Assembly (NCBI RefSeq): GCF_002005405.1
Contig: NZ_CP019728.1
Span: 1,426,001 to 1,490,000 of the forward strand
DNA length: 64,000 nt
Direction: 5' to 3'
From: Jeotgalibaca dankookensis
Lineage (GTDB): Bacteria; Bacillota; Bacilli; Lactobacillales; Aerococcaceae
A model generated the notes under the pieces. That model was not told the DNA's origin. It made no database searches and worked only from the letters and a program-made list of their open reading frames with translations. Positions 9,760 to 18,558 of this stretch are shown piece after piece. How positions within the stretch are numbered: the first letter of the stretch is position 1; each line of letters starts with the position of its first letter. The position numbers and the translations under genes were made by a program.

Positions 9760-11052
9760 TTACTGATTGATTAATTTTTTATCAATTGCTTTTTGTCGCA
9801 ATTCATCTCGGAATTTCGGATGCGCAATTTTGATTAAAGCCTGAGCACGTTCACTGAATGTTTTACCAATTAATTCAGCTTTACCGTATTCTGTTACCAC
9901 AGTGTCAATATCATTTTTTGATGTTGATACAATTGACCCTAATGCCAATTCCGAAACGATGGTAGAAATTTCGTCATTTTTAGCAGTAGAATAAAGACAG
10001 ATGATACCGCGACCATTTTTTGTTAAACGAACACCTTTTGTGAAGTCAGCTTGCCCACCTGTTGATGAGTACAAAACCCCTCCAACAGATTCTGAGTTAC
10101 ATTGACCATAAAAGTCAACTTCAACGGTTGAGTTAATTGAAACAAGATTATCTACTTTAGCAATATTCATGAGACTATTTGTTTCATCACACGGTAGCAT
10201 AAGAATATCTTCATTGTTATCCATAAATTCATACAATCGTTTTGAGCCGATTGCGAAAGTGGACACTGTTTTACCTGGATGAGTAGGATTAAATTTATTT
10301 GTTACAACACCTTTTTCAACTAAATCAACTAATTTATCAGGTAACATCTCGCTATAAATACCAAGATCTTTTTTGTCCATTAGATACTCCATCACAGCAT
10401 TTGGCATCGAACCAAATCCAATTTGTAAGGTTGCACCATCTGAAACCGTATCTGCGATGATTTTCCCAATTGCTAAGTCTTTTTCTTTCAAAACAGGTGT
10501 TGGCAATTCTGGTAAATCAACTGTATTTTCAACTAAGGCGTCGACTTGGCTAATATGAATATTATTTTTTGTACCAAAGGTCCGTGGCATGTTCTCGTTG
10601 ACTTCTAAAATAATTGTTTTAGCATGTTCAATCAACGATGCTACGTAGGAGGGACTGGTCCCTAAAGAGAAGTTTCCATCCTTATCCATAGGCGAAACAG
10701 TTGCCATGATGACAGGATGTGGGGAACGCTTCAATAACAGGGATGGAATATCAGAGAAGTGGTTCGGCAAGAAATCAACGAATCCTTCGCGATAATATTT
10801 ACGGTCTGCTCCCGATAAGAAGATTGATACTTGTTGTAGCTTATCTTGTTCAATATCTAAAGGTGCTGAACTAGGTAACATTCGGTGTAAGTAGTTACCT
10901 GCTAATTTTTCATTCGTTGGAATAGCTGCTAATAAGGCTGGTGGTTCACCAGGATTAATAGGAAATACAATTTCTTCGCCTGCTTCTACCAACTGTACCG
11001 CACGCTCAGGCGTTGTCAGTTTCTCTTGATATAATTTTTTATAGTCCGTCAT
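9760..11052 (-). CDS. Acetyl-CoA hydrolase / 4-hydroxybutyrate CoA-transferase family
   Basis: This 430-residue protein has the two-domain CoA-transferase fold. The segment STVEVDFYGQ places the likely catalytic glutamate at residue 311. QIGFGSMPNAV (about 210-220), GGQADFTKG and the C-terminal VVTEYGKAELIGKTFSERA complete the family pattern. Members move CoA between acetate and butyryl-, 4-hydroxybutyryl- or propionyl-CoA; the exact acid cannot be told from sequence. It is the last gene of the thiolase operon, 26 bases after crotonase. It would activate fatty acid substrates or release butyrate-type products, depending on flux direction. Confidence 0.85.
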   Translation of the reverse strand: MTDYKKLYQEKLTTPERAVQLVEAGEEIVFPINPGEPPALLAAIPTNEKLAGNYLHRMLPSSAPLDIEQDKLQQVSIFLSGADRKYYREGFVDFLPNHFSDIPSLLLKRSPHPVIMATVSPMDKDGNFSLGTSPSYVASLIEHAKTIILEVNENMPRTFGTKNNIHISQVDALVENTVDLPELPTPVLKEKDLAIGKIIADTVSDGATLQIGFGSMPNAVMEYLMDKKDLGIYSEMLPDKLVDLVEKGVVTNKFNPTHPGKTVSTFAIGSKRLYEFMDNNEDILMLPCDETNSLMNIAKVDNLVSINSTVEVDFYGQCNSESVGGVLYSSTGGQADFTKGVRLTKNGRGIICLYSTAKNDEISTIVSELALGSIVSTSKNDIDTVVTEYGKAELIGKTFSERAQALIKIAHPKFRDELRQKAIDKKLINQ

Positions 11053-11078: not shown

Positions 11079-11864
11079 TTATTTATTTTTGAAAGTGGCT
11101 TTACGTTTTTCAGTGAAAGCGGTCATGCCTTCTTTTTGATCTTCTGTTGAAAATAAAATTCCGAACATTTCTGCTTCTAAAGCGAGTGCGTGTGAAAGGT
11201 CCATTTCAAGTCCGCGGTTAATTGCTTCCTTACTTGCCTTCACTGCTAATGGTGCTTGTTTTAGGATCATAGTAGCCATTTTATTAGCTTCATCAAGTAA
11301 TTCTTCAATCGGAACCACAGCATTTAAAAGGCCAATTGTTTCAGCCTCTTCTGACTTAATAACTTTACCAGTATAAATAAGCTCTTTTGCCTTGGCTGGC
11401 CCAACTAGTCGACTCAAGCGTTGAGTCCCACCAAAACCGGGGATAATTCCTAGGCCTACTTCTGGTTGACCGAATTTTGCATTCTCACTCCCAATACGGA
11501 TATCACAAGCAAGAGCTAATTCACATCCACCACCTAATGCAAAGCCATTTACAGCTGCGATGGTTGGTTGACTTAAATTATCTAACAATGAGAATACCTT
11601 ATTCCCAAAATTAGAAAACTCACGTCCGGCAAGCGCATGTTTTTCTTTCATTTCTTTGATGTCTGCACCTGCTACAAAGGCTTTTTCGCCTGAACCAGTA
11701 ACAATTAGTACATGAATATCTTTATCTTGGTCAATGGCGATAAAAGCATCGTGCAGTTCTTGAAGAACTTGCGAATTAAGTGCATTTAAGCTTTTAGGGC
11801 GGTTAATTGTTAGTGTTCCAATCCCATCTTTTTTTTCAATAAGTAAGGTTTCATACTGTTTCAT
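11079..11864 (-). CDS. Enoyl-CoA hydratase (crotonase family)
   Basis: This 261-residue cytosolic enzyme hydrates enoyl-CoA to 3-hydroxyacyl-CoA. The oxyanion loops AGADIKEM and ALGGGCELALACD are present. Both catalytic glutamates of active hydratases can be placed, in GGGCELAL and in GQPEVGLGIIPGFGGTQRL. It lies 11 bases after the 3-hydroxyacyl-CoA dehydrogenase gene in the same operon. Short-chain (crotonyl-CoA) specificity is likely from its similarity to clostridial Crt, but not proven. Confidence 0.92.
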   Translation of the reverse strand: MKQYETLLIEKKDGIGTLTINRPKSLNALNSQVLQELHDAFIAIDQDKDIHVLIVTGSGEKAFVAGADIKEMKEKHALAGREFSNFGNKVFSLLDNLSQPTIAAVNGFALGGGCELALACDIRIGSENAKFGQPEVGLGIIPGFGGTQRLSRLVGPAKAKELIYTGKVIKSEEAETIGLLNAVVPIEELLDEANKMATMILKQAPLAVKASKEAINRGLEMDLSHALALEAEMFGILFSTEDQKEGMTAFTEKRKATFKNK

Positions 11865-11875
11865 TTTTATTCCCC

Positions 11876-12727
11876 CTATTTATAACTGTAAAATCCTTGA
11901 CCTGTTTTTTTACCTAAGCGACCTGCTTCAACGTATTTTTTCAATAATGGACAAGGACGATATTTGGAGTCACTAAATCCTTCATATAGAACTTCCATAA
12001 TCGCTAAGCACACATCTAAACCAATATAATCAGCGAGTGCAATTGGTCCCATTGGGTGGTTTGCACCTAGTTTCATGGCTTCGTCAACCTCTTCGGCTGA
12101 TGCAACACCTTCATAGACGGTATAAATTGCTTCATTAATCATAGGAATTAAAATCCGGTTTACTGCAAAACCTGGTGAGTCTTTTACATCAATACCGACT
12201 TTACCGATTTTTTTAGTTAAATCGAAAATAGCTTCAGCTGTTTCTTGACTTGTTGTTAAGGCACGGTTTACTTCTACCAATTTCATGACTGGAACTGGGT
12301 TGAAGAAATGCATACCAATCACACGGTCAGGACGTTTTGTAGCATTGGCAATTTCTGTTACTGATAGTGAAGAGGTATTACTTGCTAAAATTGTCTCAGC
12401 AGGAGTGATTTCGTCTAGTTTACGGAAAATATCAAGTTTAATTGTTTTATTTTCCGTTGCAGCTTCGATAACAAGTTGTACATCTTTTGCGTCTGCATAA
12501 TCCGTTGAGAGTGTAAAACGCTCTAAAATCGCTGTTTTATCTTCTTCTGTCTTGCGTTCTTTTTGAATATCACGATCTAGCTGTTTTGCAATCTTCTCAA
12601 TTGCTTTATCTAAAAATTCTTGTTTAATATCATTTAGAATAACTTGGTATCCTGTTTCTGCCATTACTTGTGCAATACCGCTTCCCATTGTTCCAGAACC
12701 GATAACCATTATTTTGTTGATTTCCAT
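11876..12727 (-). CDS. 3-hydroxybutyryl-CoA dehydrogenase
   Basis: The 283-residue enzyme begins MEINKIMVIGSGTMGSGIAQ, the NAD(P)-binding Rossmann loop. It carries the catalytic His region GMHFFNPVPVMKLVEV and the C-terminal helical domain with HPMGPIALADYIGLDV. It interconverts acetoacetyl-CoA and 3-hydroxybutyryl-CoA. The start at 12727 follows AAAGGAG; an upstream in-frame ATG at 12751 would overlap the preceding gene and lacks a ribosome site. The length matches clostridial Hbd. Confidence 0.93.
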   Translation of the reverse strand: MEINKIMVIGSGTMGSGIAQVMAETGYQVILNDIKQEFLDKAIEKIAKQLDRDIQKERKTEEDKTAILERFTLSTDYADAKDVQLVIEAATENKTIKLDIFRKLDEITPAETILASNTSSLSVTEIANATKRPDRVIGMHFFNPVPVMKLVEVNRALTTSQETAEAIFDLTKKIGKVGIDVKDSPGFAVNRILIPMINEAIYTVYEGVASAEEVDEAMKLGANHPMGPIALADYIGLDVCLAIMEVLYEGFSDSKYRPCPLLKKYVEAGRLGKKTGQGFYSYK

Positions 12728-12731
12728 TAAA

Positions 12732-13877
12732 TTATTCTCCTTTATTGTCATGTATCCGCTTTAACCAAGGTTTTGACATGAGTGTCATTTGGGTGTGACT
12801 ACTACCACCGTAGATTTGGGTGAGTTTTGAATCACGAACATATCGCTCAATGGCATTATCTCTCATATATCCGTATCCCCCCGTTAGTAGCATCGCCATC
12901 TCTGCTGTTTCAACCGCCACGTTAGAGGCTTTTAGCTTCACGAGAGCCGGCAAACAAATTTCATCTGGGTTAAAAACTTCGATTTTTTCAAGGATAGCTT
13001 CGGCTGCATAAATTTCTGAATATGCAGTTGCCATTTTGTACTGATTATTTGGTAAATCAATCAACCGTTGTCCAAACCGGCGATCTTGTTGCATGTAGGC
13101 TAAAGTACGTTCAAATACCCCTTGTGCCAGACCAATTGCTTGAGCTGCTACAAATACTTTATTATAATTTTTGATTGCATAAACTTGCTCTTTTCCACCA
13201 GGCTTACCACCTAATACAGCATCTTTGGACAAGTGAACACGTTCAAAATTTAATTGGGCAACAGGAAGTCCGCGTATACCCATTTTTTCTTCTTGGGGAC
13301 CAATTGTTAGTCCCGGCGTATCGCAAGGTACTAGGAAAATCCCATAATCTTCCTCACCATTTAACAAACGGGTGCGGGCTGCCACTGAATAAATGCCTGC
13401 TTTACCTGCTAATGAGATAAAATGTTTGGCACCAGTTAATTCCCACCCATCCTCTTTTTCAATCGCTGTTGTTTCAATTTTTTCTAAGTTACTTCCAATG
13501 TCTATTTCATTCATGGCAAAAGCCCCTAGTAGTTCTCCACTCAAAAGAGCCGGTAAATACAAGTTTTTTTGCTCTTGCGTTCCGTAGTCGTGAATGGGTG
13601 TAATACCAAAGGAAATTTGCGTTAGTAATACACTAGAAGTAGAAGCACACTCTTTGGAGACAAGTCGGATAACTTCTAAAGTGTCTTGTAGCGTTCCGTC
13701 AAGCCCACCGTTACAGCGGTAGAATGGGATACGTAACACGCCTAAATCAGCTAGATAATAAACTGTTTCTTCCGGAAAAACTTCATTCTTATCAATTTCT
13801 TTCGCTTGATCCCGCACAACAGTTTCTGAATACTCTTGAACGTTGTGAATGATGCCATCAATGGGACGTGTTACCAT
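12732..13877 (-). CDS. Acyl-CoA dehydrogenase-like protein missing the catalytic glutamate
   Basis: This 381-residue flavoprotein-family member has the alpha-beta-alpha layout. GWELTGAKHFISLAG (about 144-158), MGIRGLPVAQLNF (199-211), RRFGQ and LTGGYGYMRDNAIERYVRD (331-349) mark it. The catalytic glutamate of most members, in a YEGT motif, is replaced: residues 355-359 read IYGGS. The alternative glutamate used by isovaleryl-CoA dehydrogenase aligns to Asn239. The FAD/substrate motif usually TEPxAGSD reads NEIDIGSN. It is in the thiolase operon, 25 bases after thiolase, so it is probably made, but its activity is doubtful or atypical. It could act on an unusual substrate or bind acyl-CoA without oxidation. 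Confidence 0.85.
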   Translation of the reverse strand: MVTRPIDGIIHNVQEYSETVVRDQAKEIDKNEVFPEETVYYLADLGVLRIPFYRCNGGLDGTLQDTLEVIRLVSKECASTSSVLLTQISFGITPIHDYGTQEQKNLYLPALLSGELLGAFAMNEIDIGSNLEKIETTAIEKEDGWELTGAKHFISLAGKAGIYSVAARTRLLNGEEDYGIFLVPCDTPGLTIGPQEEKMGIRGLPVAQLNFERVHLSKDAVLGGKPGGKEQVYAIKNYNKVFVAAQAIGLAQGVFERTLAYMQQDRRFGQRLIDLPNNQYKMATAYSEIYAAEAILEKIEVFNPDEICLPALVKLKASNVAVETAEMAMLLTGGYGYMRDNAIERYVRDSKLTQIYGGSSHTQMTLMSKPWLKRIHDNKGE

Positions 13878-13902: not shown

Positions 13903-15084
13903 TTATCTTTCTACAACTAAAGCAATTCCTTGTCCGCCACCAATACATAGGGTAGCTAAACCGCGTTTCGAATCACGTTTTTTCATTTCATGTAAGAGTG
14001 TTACAAGGATACGAGCGCCACTTGCACCAATTGGGTGTCCGAGGGCTATCGCACCACCATTAACGTTAGTAATACTTGTGTCTAAGCCAAGGTCTGTAAT
14101 AACACTTAACGCTTGCGCCGCAAATGCTTCGTTTGCTTCAATTAATTCTAAATCAGATACTTCTAGATTTGCTTTTTTCAATGCTTTTTTGGTTGCTGGA
14201 ATTGGTCCACAACCCATAATTTTCGGTTCTACTCCCGCACTTGCATAAGACTTGATTGTTGCCATCGGTTCAAATCCTAGCTCTTCAGCTTTTTCTTTTG
14301 ACATAACAATGACTACTGCTGCGCCATCATTTAATCCGGATGAATTTCCAGCTGTAACGGTTCCGCCATCACGTTTGAAAGCAGGTTTAAGTTTACTCAT
14401 AGATTCCATAGTTGTTCCAAAGCGAGGATATTCGTCTGTATCAAAAACAACAGGTTCGCCTCTTCTTTGTGGGACTGGGAACGGAATAATTTCATCTTTA
14501 AAACGGCCTGATTTAATTGCTTTTTCAGCATTATTTTGACTCAATACAGCTAATTCATCTTGTTGTTGTCTGGTAAAACCGTATTTTTCAACGATGTTTT
14601 CTGCTGTCATACCCATATGAATGTCATTAAAAGCATCCATCAACCCATCTTTAAGCATGGTATCAACCATTTTTGTATCACCCATACGTGCACCCCAACG
14701 CGCATCGTTCACAACGTAAGGCGCTTGACTCATCACTTCGGTTCCACCGGCGATCACAATTTCGTTGTCCCCTGCAATAATAGATTGTGCTGCTAATGCC
14801 ACTGTTTTTAACCCTGAACCACACACTTTATTAATTGTAAATGATGGAACGTGTTTTGGAATCCCTGAGTTAACAGCTACTTGACGTGCTACGTTTTGTC
14901 CGAGCCCTGCGCTCAATACATTACCAAAAATTAATTCATCGACTAGGCTAGGATCTAGATTAATACTTGCCATTGCTTCTTTAACAGCATGCGCTCCTAA
15001 ATCAACAGCTGAAACATTTTTCAATGCTCCTCCAAAAGCTCCCATTGGTGTTCTTAGTGCTTGTACAATAACTACTTCACGCAT
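13903..15084 (-). CDS. Acetyl-CoA C-acetyltransferase (thiolase)
   Basis: This 393-residue biosynthetic-type thiolase joins two acetyl-CoA to acetoacetyl-CoA or cleaves the product. Cys88 in [10 protein letters not shown] is the acyl-accepting residue, the histidine is in [17 protein letters not shown], and the second cysteine in [12 protein letters not shown]. The start at 15084 gives MREVVIV with GGAGG eight bases upstream; the ATG just before it (15087) is nearly as good. It is the first gene of the five-gene operon running down to the CoA-transferase. Confidence 0.93.
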
Positions 15085-15147
15085 CATATATTCCTCCATT
15101 TATCTTTTTTAAACATTCCATTATGTATCATTTGTAAGTGTAAGGGG

Positions 15148-15221
15148 TGAAACGTTTACAATGTTATGATACCGTTGTTTATGATCTAGGTCTACAAAGT
15201 TTCTTTTAAGATATCTATAAG
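15148..15221 (-). promoter_or_regulatory. Control region of the thiolase operon
   Basis: This stretch upstream of thiolase holds a near-cre sequence (TGTAAACGTTTCA read on the minus strand, 15148-15160) that is one base short of the CcpA consensus. It also holds an AGATATCT palindrome (15209-15216) and a CTATAAG motif (15215-15221). CTATAAG recurs in the dyad upstream of the second acyl-CoA dehydrogenase gene. No clear -35/-10 pair was placed. LysR or CcpA control is an inference. Confidence 0.35.
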
Positions 15222-15256
15222 TTAAGTTAATACTCTTAAGAGATTCATGGTATTTA

Positions 15257-15284
15257 AAAAGACTAGATTGTTTTCTAGTCTTTT
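15257..15284 (-). terminator. Terminator of the LysR gene
   Basis: An 11-bp perfect stem (AAAAGACTAGA/TCTAGTCTTTT) with a 6-base loop lies just after the LysR stop. On the minus strand it is followed by a T run. Confidence 0.8.
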
Positions 15285-15306
15285 GTTTGTAGGTTATTTT
15301 GACTAA

Positions 15307-16209
15307 TTAGTCTATTGGTTGGTAAAAATAATTTAGCATTTCTTCATGCAAATAAGCTTCAACTGGGCTATAGCTTTGTTTTATAGGGCGGCACAGTAAA
15401 ACATTAAAGGGAATCGGATCATTAAATCTTTTCATAGCAACATCTTCAATTTTTAAATACCGTTTAATTGGAGCAGGTAAGATGGCAATAATATCAGAGT
15501 GATAGGTTGTCTCCACTAAAAAGTCCCAGGAAGCAGATGTTAAAGTAATGGCCGTTTCTGATTTTTTACTTTTTAATTTTTCTGAAACAAGTTTATTGGT
15601 AATAAAGGACTCTCTAAAAGTAGCTATCTGGTAGGGGTTTAAGTCTTGCCAGCTAATCTCTTCTTTTTTTGATAGAGCGTGGATTGGGTTCATAAAGGCG
15701 GTATATTCATCAATTTGGATTACGTGTTCTTCATAGCTTTTAGGGTCTAAACCAGTTGGTGCGACTAAAACGGCATAATCTAAATCTTTTTCAAAGAGCA
15801 TTCGTTTCAGTTCATACGAGCCCTCTTCAATAATTTCTATTTTGACGTCGGGGTTTTCAACAATAAAACGTGAGAAAAAATTTGAAAATAAAACGGTTAA
15901 AACCAATGAGGGTAGACCAATTCGAATCGTTCCTTTTTGTTTTGCTGATTCTTTTCGAACCATCTCCTGCATCTCTTCATACATAGAAACAATTTTTTGT
16001 GCGTATTCATAAACTTTTTGTCCACTTGGGGAAAGTTCTTCTAGTCGGCTATTTTTACGAATGAATAACTCGATTTCTTCGTCGCGCTCGAAGTTTGTCA
16101 CAAATTGGCTTAAGGCGGATTGTGAAATATGAATTCTTCGAGCTGCCAATGATAAATTACAACCACATTCTACAATTGTGATGAGATAATACATCTGAGT
16201 GATGTCCAT
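15307..16209 (-). CDS. LysR-family transcriptional regulator
   Basis: This 300-residue regulator has an N-terminal helix-turn-helix (NLSLAARRIHISQSALSQFV, about residues 18-37) and a C-terminal periplasmic-binding-like effector domain from about residue 90. It lies between the thiolase operon and the second acyl-CoA dehydrogenase gene, all on the same strand, each with its own terminator. Control of the flanking acyl-CoA genes is likely from position but not proven; the effector may be an acyl-CoA or fatty acid. Confidence 0.88.
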   Translation of the reverse strand: MDITQMYYLITIVECGCNLSLAARRIHISQSALSQFVTNFERDEEIELFIRKNSRLEELSPSGQKVYEYAQKIVSMYEEMQEMVRKESAKQKGTIRIGLPSLVLTVLFSNFFSRFIVENPDVKIEIIEEGSYELKRMLFEKDLDYAVLVAPTGLDPKSYEEHVIQIDEYTAFMNPIHALSKKEEISWQDLNPYQIATFRESFITNKLVSEKLKSKKSETAITLTSASWDFLVETTYHSDIIAILPAPIKRYLKIEDVAMKRFNDPIPFNVLLCRPIKQSYSPVEAYLHEEMLNYFYQPID

Positions 16210-16294
16210 CGCGCTCTCTCCTTACAATTTTCTTAACTCATGAATATTCCTACTCTATTATACCTTTAATGTATTTAAAAAGGACAAAAAAAAA

Positions 16295-16321
16295 AGAGGC
16301 CTACTTAAAAGTAGCCTCCTT
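16295..16321 (-). terminator. Terminator of the second acyl-CoA dehydrogenase gene
   Basis: On the minus strand GAGGCTACTT pairs with AAGTAGGCCTC (one bulge) and is followed by about eleven T. It sits just after the dehydrogenase stop. Confidence 0.8.
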
Positions 16322-16332
16322 TGAAAAATATT

Positions 16333-17550
16333 TTAAACGAATGCACTCTCACCAGTTAAGTAGCGGCCTACAATTAATGCGTTAATTTCATGTGTTCCTT
16401 CGTAGGAATAGATGGCTTCAGCATCTGTAAAGAAGCGAGCAACATCTGTATCTAGAGTGATACCATTTCCACCTACAACTTCACGAGCCAGTGCTACAGT
16501 TTCACGCATACGAAGCGCATTGTGCATTTTTGACATAGCGGAATTTACTTCTGAATAATTTCCTTCTTCTTGTAATTGCGCTAAGCGAACCGAATATGAA
16601 AGACATGCTGTTACATTTGCTTGCATAATGGAAAGTTTTTCTTGAACTAATTGGAATGAACCAATTTTCTTACCAAATTGTTCACGCTCTTTTACATAAC
16701 GCAACGCTGCTTCAAAAGCACCTGCTGCTAAACCAGTAGCAAGATGAGATATGTCTGCGCGTGTTGTTCTTAAGATTGCTGCAACATCTCTAAAGCCATG
16801 GATATTTGGTAGACGACGGTCTTCACTAACTTCAACATTAATCATAGTAATGTGGCCATTTGGAACCATACGCAGTGATACTTTATTTTTAATATTTTCA
16901 ACGGTTAGACCTTCGGCTTTTCCTGGAACGACGAAAGCTTTTACTTTGTTATCTTCAACGTCACGAGCAAAGATAACAATCTCATCCGCATTTTTCGCGC
17001 CACCAATCCAGCGTTTCTCTCCATTTAAAATCCAATTGTCACCATCGCGACGTGCGCTTGTTGCTAAGCCACCAGCAATATCAGAACCGTGTAGTGGTTC
17101 TGTTAAACCGAAACAAGTTAGGTTTTCAAAGGACGTTACTTTTGGAGCCCAGCGATCAATCTGTTCTTTTGTACCACCATATAGAAGTGCTGCGTAGAAT
17201 AGACCACCATGGACTGTATAAAGCGTTGCAAATGATGGATCCATTTTAGCTAGTTCAAAATAACGGAATACATTAAATAACTCACTTGTTTTAAGTTCGT
17301 CTTCACGTCCCTCAAACAATCTTTTATCATTCATGAATCCTACTTTGGTTATTTCTTCCCATGCATGAAATGGAAACTCTGCTTTTTCTGTATACTCTGT
17401 TAAGATTGGATAAACATTTTTTTCTAGCGACTCGCGTAGTTCTTTCAGAACTTCTAGTTCACCATCAGTTAAATCATTTGAATATCCGAACAAATCTGTT
17501 GGATAAAATTCTTTTGTATCTACTGGTCTTGCTGTTTTTTCTGCTGCCAT
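16333..17550 (-). CDS. Acyl-CoA dehydrogenase (canonical active site)
   Basis: This 405-residue FAD enzyme has TEPLHGSDIAGG, the MVPNGHITMINVEV segment, REQFGKKIGSFQLVQ, GGNGITLDTDVARFF and the catalytic SYEGTHEIN motif with Glu384. These are the hallmarks of an active dehydrogenase. The C-terminal pattern resembles glutaryl-CoA dehydrogenase and plant short-chain acyl-CoA oxidase 4. It converts acyl-CoA to enoyl-CoA, passing electrons to an acceptor, normally EtfAB, which is not encoded in this window. It is monocistronic, with its own terminator and an upstream dyad at 17642-17668. It contrasts with the operon paralogue at 12732-13877, which lacks the glutamate. Confidence 0.9.
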   Translation of the reverse strand: MAAEKTARPVDTKEFYPTDLFGYSNDLTDGELEVLKELRESLEKNVYPILTEYTEKAEFPFHAWEEITKVGFMNDKRLFEGREDELKTSELFNVFRYFELAKMDPSFATLYTVHGGLFYAALLYGGTKEQIDRWAPKVTSFENLTCFGLTEPLHGSDIAGGLATSARRDGDNWILNGEKRWIGGAKNADEIVIFARDVEDNKVKAFVVPGKAEGLTVENIKNKVSLRMVPNGHITMINVEVSEDRRLPNIHGFRDVAAILRTTRADISHLATGLAAGAFEAALRYVKEREQFGKKIGSFQLVQEKLSIMQANVTACLSYSVRLAQLQEEGNYSEVNSAMSKMHNALRMRETVALAREVVGGNGITLDTDVARFFTDAEAIYSYEGTHEINALIVGRYLTGESAFV

Positions 17551-17673: not shown

Positions 17674-18531
17674 CTAAATGTATCTTTTTTTACTGCGTTT
17701 CAAGGTAGCGATCATTTCTTTTCCTTCTTTATCCCATTGAATCATCCGGTAAACAACGTCATGGTAAAAGATAAATTTATAACCATTTTTATAAGCTTCT
17801 GCTAACCAAGCTTGTTTGGCGTAGATGGTATCCATTGGATAATCATCGTAAGCCATTACCCAAAGTGGATTTTGTTGGGCGTGGATTGGCATAATATCTG
17901 CCATATGTAGGAGTGTCTCATTGCCCTGAGTTAACTTAATAATGGCATGTCCCCTACTATGGCCACCCGTATGGTACATCGTTATACCGGGCACAACTTC
18001 TAATTCTTTTTCAAAAGTGACCACCTGATCTTGAATCGCTTCCCAATTCTGTTTCCAGTAGGTACTCTTAGAACGAATATTGGGCTCACGTACTTCATCC
18101 CATTCAATTTGCGTCATATAAATTGTTGCATTTGGAAAAGATGACACCAACTGGTCTTTCTCATACCGCGTTAATCCGGTGGCATGATCAAAATGCATAT
18201 GGGTCATCAATACTACGTCAATATCTGCTCGTGTTAAATTTAAAGATTCCAAACTTTCTTCAATAGTTGACTCTTCGTGGACACCAAAATTTCTTTTTTG
18301 TTTTTCTGTTAACTTACCCTTTTCAATCCCGCTATCAATTAAATAATTTTTGCCTTGGTACTGAATTAATATCGGTTCCGTCGCATTTTCAATTTGATTG
18401 TTATCATTTGAAGCATATTTACGGCTCCATAGTGGTTTGGGAACAACACCAAAGATAGCACCCCCATCATAAGACACTACTCCACCATCCAACCAGGTTA
18501 AAGTCATATCATGAAACTGTAAAGTATCCAT
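17674..18531 (-). CDS. ytnP: YtnP-like quorum-quenching lactonase (metallo-beta-lactamase fold)
   Basis: This 285-residue hydrolase has the metal-binding motif HMHFDH at residues 111-116, a second ligand set in HTGGHSRGH (187-195), and the bridging aspartate in HMADIMP near residue 212. The segments [17 protein letters not shown] and [13 protein letters not shown] closely resemble Bacillus subtilis YtnP, a lactonase that interferes with signalling by other bacteria. The start at 18531 follows AAAGGGG by eight bases; a TTG two codons earlier is less likely. It follows the CoA-transferase-like gene by 27 bases, so they form one unit. In this setting it might instead act on an acyl lactone or thioester (inference). 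Confidence 0.82.
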
Positions 18532-18558
18532 ATTCAAGTCCCCTTTCTAACTTACCCT

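Follow-up and report, generated by a model that had tools for sequence, protein, structure and literature searches.

What can a protein with the acyl-CoA dehydrogenase (ACAD) fold contribute to a short-chain acyl-CoA operon when both glutamate positions known to supply the catalytic base in this superfamily hold other residues? The question is raised by ACADx, a 381-residue protein encoded in a 64,000-nucleotide stretch of Jeotgalibaca dankookensis (contig NZ_CP019728.1, positions 1,426,001 to 1,490,000; the whole stretch is called the window below). Several ACAD branches are known to have lost the glutamate of the YEG motif and, in the cases that have been solved, this loss proved to accompany the use of another base, an altered chemistry or a changed role. 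No paper was found in the literature on the clade to which ACADx belongs; as base-less proteins of the ACAD superfamily are already known, this clade is a further variant among them.

The locus of ACADx and its natural counterparts

The ACADx reading frame begins with an ATG and is free of internal stops. Its product matches the N-terminal, middle and C-terminal ACAD domains (PF02771, PF02770 and PF00441), all above the cut-off, which places it within the ACAD superfamily fold. From the point of view of sequence as well as of predicted fold, the nearest solved relatives are butyryl-CoA and short-chain acyl-CoA dehydrogenases (5ol2, 9w60, 2vig and, for MmgC, 5lnx), with which the three domains are held in common; against 9w61, with the butyryl-CoA dehydrogenase fold, the prediction reaches a TM score of 0.82, in a model of which the overall fold alone was used (AlphaFold, three input sequences; pLDDT 65 on average and under 50 for residues 353-381). 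Alignment confirmed what the first-pass annotation had read from the letters: Gly357, within QIYGGSS, takes the place of the MCAD-type catalytic glutamate (MCAD 376), Asn239 falls on the helix-G glutamate position of the IVD/LCAD enzymes, and the TEPxAGSD segment has become NEIDIGSN (residues 123-130).

The second place of ACADx in the operon, also noted in that annotation, was found again in a minus-strand run that reads thiolase, ACADx, 3-hydroxybutyryl-CoA dehydrogenase (Hbd), crotonase and CoA-transferase (Table 1), where the longest Hbd reading frame and the ACADx stop overlap by 20 nt. For the CoA-transferase, the eleven top-ranking solved relatives are themselves CoA-transferases, nearly all of them named 4-hydroxybutyrate CoA-transferase.

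Table 1. Genes of the ACADx locus, with positions counted within the window
Feature	Position	Strand	Remarks
CoA-transferase, 4-hydroxybutyrate / butyryl-CoA:acetate type	9760..11052	minus	TIGR03948 294.4 bits, below cut-off 674.8
Short-chain enoyl-CoA hydratase (crotonase)	11079..11864	minus	NF004475 391.3 bits, just below cut-off 394
3-Hydroxybutyryl-CoA dehydrogenase (Hbd)	11876..12751	minus	NF004474 464.1 bits, cut-off 408
ACADx, base-less acyl-CoA dehydrogenase-like protein, 381 aa	12732..13877	minus	Gly357 and Asn239 at the known base positions
Thiolase, acetyl-CoA C-acetyltransferase family, first in run	13903..15099	minus	TIGR01930 503.6 bits, cut-off 240.55
LysR-type regulator	15307..16209	minus	Evolutionary rate covaries with ACADx
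FadE, staphylococcal type, YEGT base intact	16333..17550	minus	NF052270 632.3 bits, cut-off 600
YtnP-family MBL-fold lactonase	17674..18537	minus	NF047919 454.6 bits, cut-off 425
Acetate CoA-transferase alpha-subunit-like ORF, 195 aa	18559..19146	minus	TIGR02429 138.2 bits, cut-off 128.5, in two stretches

The arrangement of this operon with the LysR, FadE and lactonase genes recurs across families of Lactobacillales and, as judged from sequence, ACADx is a member of a clade resembling the SCAD/butyryl-CoA dehydrogenases, set inside a LysR-linked locus for short-chain acyl-CoA beta-oxidation. Some features vary around this core. Next to the acetate CoA-transferase alpha-like frame no beta subunit is encoded, and the frame is possibly a remnant; intact pairs occur at other loci (e.g., L060). 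In several loci an aquaporin-family (MIP) gene adjoins the lactonase gene (L067:3669-4328 and the corresponding cluster of L068 and L072), where a function in the transport of substrate or peroxide is conceivable.

Operons naturally devoid of ACADx were also found. In L151 the order is FadE, LysR, thiolase, Hbd, crotonase, CoA-transferase and YtnP, with 36 bp between thiolase and Hbd, and L152 is a close variant that likewise has no ACADx. From these sister operons it follows that the core pathway does not need ACADx, which is an add-on. Three genomes with divergent copies (G008, G027 and G036, in L020-L022) were counted as ACADx-bearing, which leaves 14 FadE-only genomes among the 395 of the order.

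Loss of the base and remodelling of the active site

The searches covered 100 relatives, 395 genomes of the order and 398 genomes of the class and, once near-duplicates were removed, returned 42 distinct members, all from Lactobacillales. The comparison with close homologues that the first-pass annotation had proposed as a check gave a clear picture: position 357 is Gly in 40 members and Ala in two, and position 239 is occupied by N, M, I or L and by an acid in none, whereas in all 25 of the nearest canonical homologues from Bacilli these two positions hold Glu and Gly, respectively. Since the absence of a glutamate at both the MCAD and the IVD/LCAD position is shared by all 42 sequences, a mutation particular to one species or a sequencing error was rejected as its origin. 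In a tree of 51 sequences a single branch (SH-aLRT 100, stem length 1.12) divides the 26 sampled ACADx members from the canonical SCAD-like enzymes and from FadE; a single loss of the catalytic glutamate followed by long retention is the simplest history of the clade.

Acidic residues present in at least 80% of the members are found at positions 29, 124, 197, 274, 284, 306, 326, 344 and 349, of which 29, 124, 284, 344 and 349 are also common to the canonical enzymes. Only E197, D274, E306 and E326 are enriched in the clade and none of them is at a known base position; a replacement base thus appears not to be conserved. The possibilities raised in the first-pass annotation, a reaction of another kind or a binding of acyl-CoA that does not lead to its oxidation, are in keeping with this clade-wide loss. 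That ACADx is instead an ordinary dehydrogenase with an unrecognised base is very unlikely: the fold and the CoA-site residues (Asn237/Asp and Lys240/Arg) are mostly kept, as that reading would expect, but no clade-specific conserved acid occurs at the known pocket positions, the adjacent FadE already covers dehydrogenation, and an electron-transfer flavoprotein (ETF) is absent from the genome. ACADx is very probably not a base-driven alpha,beta-dehydrogenase of the ordinary kind, to judge from these residues.

The FAD and CoA sites were compared through MCAD residues, with the roles generally assigned to them in the family. With respect to the short-chain and butyryl-CoA dehydrogenases, ACADx has Gly in place of Glu, lacks an equivalent of Arg281, has mostly Asn for the Thr of the TEP motif (the MCAD Thr136 equivalent is mostly Asn or Ser in the clade) and carries Thr86 and Gln87 on the acyl-pocket helix, a near-invariant pair specific to the clade; the CoA-site residues are mostly the same (K/R at 240, N/D at 237). 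Tyr356 is kept in 39 and Glu124 in all of the 42 members, and Ser155, at the position that contacts flavin N5 (the MCAD Thr168 equivalent), is Ser in 40. With position 357 held small rather than drifting, these residues kept and the Thr86/Gln87 pair newly gained, the site seems to have been remodelled and not to have decayed. Where the FAD site meets ADP-ribose it is altered: the equivalent of Arg281 is lost in 42 of 42 members (D, E, K, V, N or F), an invariant Arg266 lying one residue later. The equivalent of Gln349 is present in 20. Binding of FAD is likely, though not certain.

Selection on the gene was also considered. For the close pairs where dN/dS could be computed, ACADx gives values of 0.06-0.12, which match or slightly exceed those of the other genes in the operon, and its overall evolutionary rate is about 2.7 times that of the thiolase (1.2 times for FadE). 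ACADx is under purifying selection, yet freer than its neighbours. The rapid evolution and the clean absence from the sister operons could suggest a decaying pseudo-enzyme whose role is gone; this is highly improbable in view of the open reading frames of the members examined, a dN/dS of about 0.1 and 29 residues invariant across 22 aligned members.

FadE and the fate of the electrons

A search for PF01012 and PF00766 in the Jeotgalibaca genome (99.99% complete) detected neither of these ETF domains; its controls were positive in 10 of 14 genomes. The short-chain and butyryl-CoA dehydrogenases differ from ACADx also in this respect. Among the 38 genomes of the order sample in which ACADx was found at E 1e-40, 37 have FadE and six have ETF, and in one of these six (G096) the ETF genes are about 60 kb from ACADx, beside a different ACAD. 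For these reasons ETF was rejected as a partner of ACADx, and the earlier suggestion that Etf-like proteins might be bound does not fit a clade whose genomes mostly lack them.

It is strongly implied that the dehydrogenation step of the pathway belongs to the adjacent FadE, which bears the glutamate. As the closest solved relative of FadE is an oxidase, Arabidopsis ACX4 (2ix5, E 1.8e-82), and the genome is without ETF, this enzyme may pass its electrons straight to O2. How FadE disposes of electrons in hosts without ETF is a question that the locus itself raises, and an electron acceptor goes unmentioned in the main text of two papers on the Staphylococcus aureus fad operon. The same situation is met in two other Lactobacillales genomes (G072 and G086, loci L018 and L019), which have a Glu-bearing ACAD (IGEGTSEIQ) and no detectable ETF. 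In L074, two genes after the base-less ACADx, a 634-residue fusion (14607-16511) joins an acyl-CoA dehydrogenase that has the glutamate to an ETF-alpha FAD-binding domain and a rubredoxin domain. A FabK-like/nitronate-monooxygenase (NMO) gene is found near several FadE or ACADx loci (L153:14751-15758, L154:12709-13680, L155:13083-15006, L156:13353-14345, and also L074, L077, L141 and L142), and its flavoprotein product is a possible redox partner.

This last gene may come into play in one alternative, in which ACADx would be an enoyl-CoA reductase: its flavin, reduced by a second flavoprotein, for instance the FabK-like/NMO one, would reduce a 2-enoyl-CoA, the alpha-proton being given by the solvent. 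ACADx does stand where bcd would be in a thl-bcd-hbd-crt-like operon, the NMO genes lie near ACADx in the last four of these loci, and the Carn branch of the ACADs is likewise devoid of the YEG glutamate (PMC8360864). However, NMO genes are also near the ACADx-free FadE loci (L153-L156), the operon of the window has none in a genome that also lacks ETF, and the sister operons persist without ACADx. Such a reductase is unlikely.

A different relation with FadE is suggested by the alpha2beta2 ACADs of mycobacteria, where ACADx would correspond to the Glu-less accessory subunit. Hetero-ACADs with one glutamate per pair are known (PMC8399759), FadE is encoded nearby in the ACADx loci examined, and the steroid enzymes ChsE4-ChsE5 and ChsE1-ChsE2 resemble the ACADx/FadE pair in that a Glu-less and a Glu-bearing ACAD share one locus. 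In the alpha2beta2 enzymes, however, it is the beta subunit, the one without the base, that holds FAD by its ADP-ribose end (PMC11153573). These contacts are not kept in ACADx, which has lost the canonical Arg, while the FadE of the window retains its own (in EREQFG), so that the division of the FAD site would be reversed and a heterotetramer with FadE is disfavoured. Moreover, FadE also occurs alone, one genome (G322) has ACADx and no FadE of the staphylococcal type, and the branch rates of the two proteins, compared after removal of the operon-wide rate, covary only slightly (r from -0.05 to 0.31). The role of FadE subunit is, on balance, distinctly unlikely.

Base-free chemistry and the link with the LysR regulator

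The ACAD branches that have lost the YEG glutamate include the isovaleryl one, where another Glu takes over, the desulfinase (AGG motif), which eliminates sulfite, the pimeloyl (Pim) branch (YGG), the Carn branch (SGG) and benzylmalonyl-CoA dehydrogenase IaaF (GGG), for which a base-free decarboxylation has been proposed and which uses neither ETF nor dyes (PMC8360864). ACADx shares with IaaF the missing glutamate, although its motif is YGG, with the Tyr kept, and no iaa pathway was seen in its operon. The YGG motif is common to the pimeloyl branch, but the model of the pimeloyl-CoA dehydrogenase small subunit (TIGR03203) gives ACADx only 74.4 bits against a cut-off of 652.7. The 3-sulfinopropionyl-CoA desulfinase (5af7/5ahs) has a similar Glu-less fold (AGG motif; TM 0.82, 27% identity) and a redox-neutral reaction; the score of ACADx in the corresponding model (NF042439) is 177.7 bits for a cut-off of 600. 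With the acryloyl-CoA reductase AcrC model (NF042972) 245.1 bits were obtained, the cut-off being 640. ACADx fits none of these named equivalog families, its scores being far under the cut-offs.

By analogy with these enzymes, the likeliest mechanism, to which we assign a probability of roughly one in three (0.36), is that ACADx, with FAD and a short CoA thioester bound, carries out a base-free flavin chemistry on a substituted short acyl-CoA. In such a mechanism the binding of FAD and of the thioester would be retained, the reaction would begin with the loss of a substituent and not with removal of the alpha-proton, and the outcome would be a redox-neutral elimination or decarboxylation, as in other base-less ACADs. 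The substituted acyl-CoA, perhaps derived from a lactone or a hydroxy acid, would in this way enter the route formed by crotonase, Hbd and thiolase. An origin of this type is plausible because a lactonase and a CoA-transferase are encoded in the locus; it is not proven by them, since both also occur without ACADx. Some points count against base-free chemistry: with the changes at the Arg281 and Gln349 equivalents the retention of FAD is not certain, and the lactonase and the 4-hydroxybutyrate-type CoA-transferase are each missing from some ACADx loci, both being present in the ACADx-free L151.

Two known ways of handling hydroxylated acyl-CoAs were considered and set aside. 4-Hydroxybutyryl-CoA dehydratase is an Fe-S enzyme of the HpaB type; as regards chemistry of this kind, no conserved cysteine is found in the clade alignment. 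The presence of lactonase and CoA-transferase also called to mind ACAD10/ACAD11 and LvaC, in which redox-neutral flavin chemistry on an ACAD fold brings 4-hydroxy acids into beta-oxidation with the help of a kinase, an Asp that acts as base and Arg/His residues that bind phosphate (PMC12440821). This mechanism was rejected, since ACADx has neither the catalytic Asp nor the residues for phosphate, and a kinase was not seen among the genes of its operon; Gly357, Ile235, Val243 and Gln246 stand at these positions, the last three being placed by the published spacing relative to the conserved Arg, which is Lys240 in ACADx (PMC12440821).

A purely enzymatic role leaves one observation unexplained, namely the covariation between ACADx and the LysR regulator. 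Their residual branch-rate covariation is the highest obtained for ACADx (with 35 taxa r is 0.66, with the 29 in synteny 0.50, and on alternative topologies 0.41-0.65), that with Hbd being 0.31-0.44; in the syntenic set the rank correlation is only 0.22-0.28, and several other gene pairs match this one in significance. As a lead, the coupling of ACADx with LysR, in rate covariation and adjacency, is stronger than that with FadE. ACADx could then be a sensor or co-regulator that binds short acyl-CoA, and possibly FAD, without turnover and signals to the adjacent LysR protein. Besides the covariation, the two genes remain neighbours even in loci where the pathway genes no longer lie beside them (L074, L076, L077 and L140-L142), a LysR orthologue of at least 295 bits is present in 30/30 ACADx genomes tested, in 2/14 FadE-only genomes and in 0/36 others, and the fast evolution of ACADx would also suit a binding or regulatory role. 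On the other hand, LysR proteins scoring 305-308 bits stand beside FadE in loci without ACADx (L150 and L151), which means that the regulator does not need it; the rank correlation is low, Hbd covaries with ACADx as well, and the co-inheritance of neighbours can mimic coupling. Moreover, no DNA-binding domain was found in ACADx by Pfam domain search. A sensor role is therefore rather unlikely, and slightly less probable still is its more specific form, in which ACADx would be a dedicated acyl-CoA sensor, possibly of flavin redox state, that controls the short-chain beta-oxidation operon together with LysR in hosts mostly devoid of ETF.

Whichever role applies, the base-less clade of these lactic-acid-type bacteria is tied to one operon, and natural operons without ACADx serve as its comparison. 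With a clade restricted in this way and such counterparts at hand, a clean experiment on what an ACAD fold does without its base is possible.
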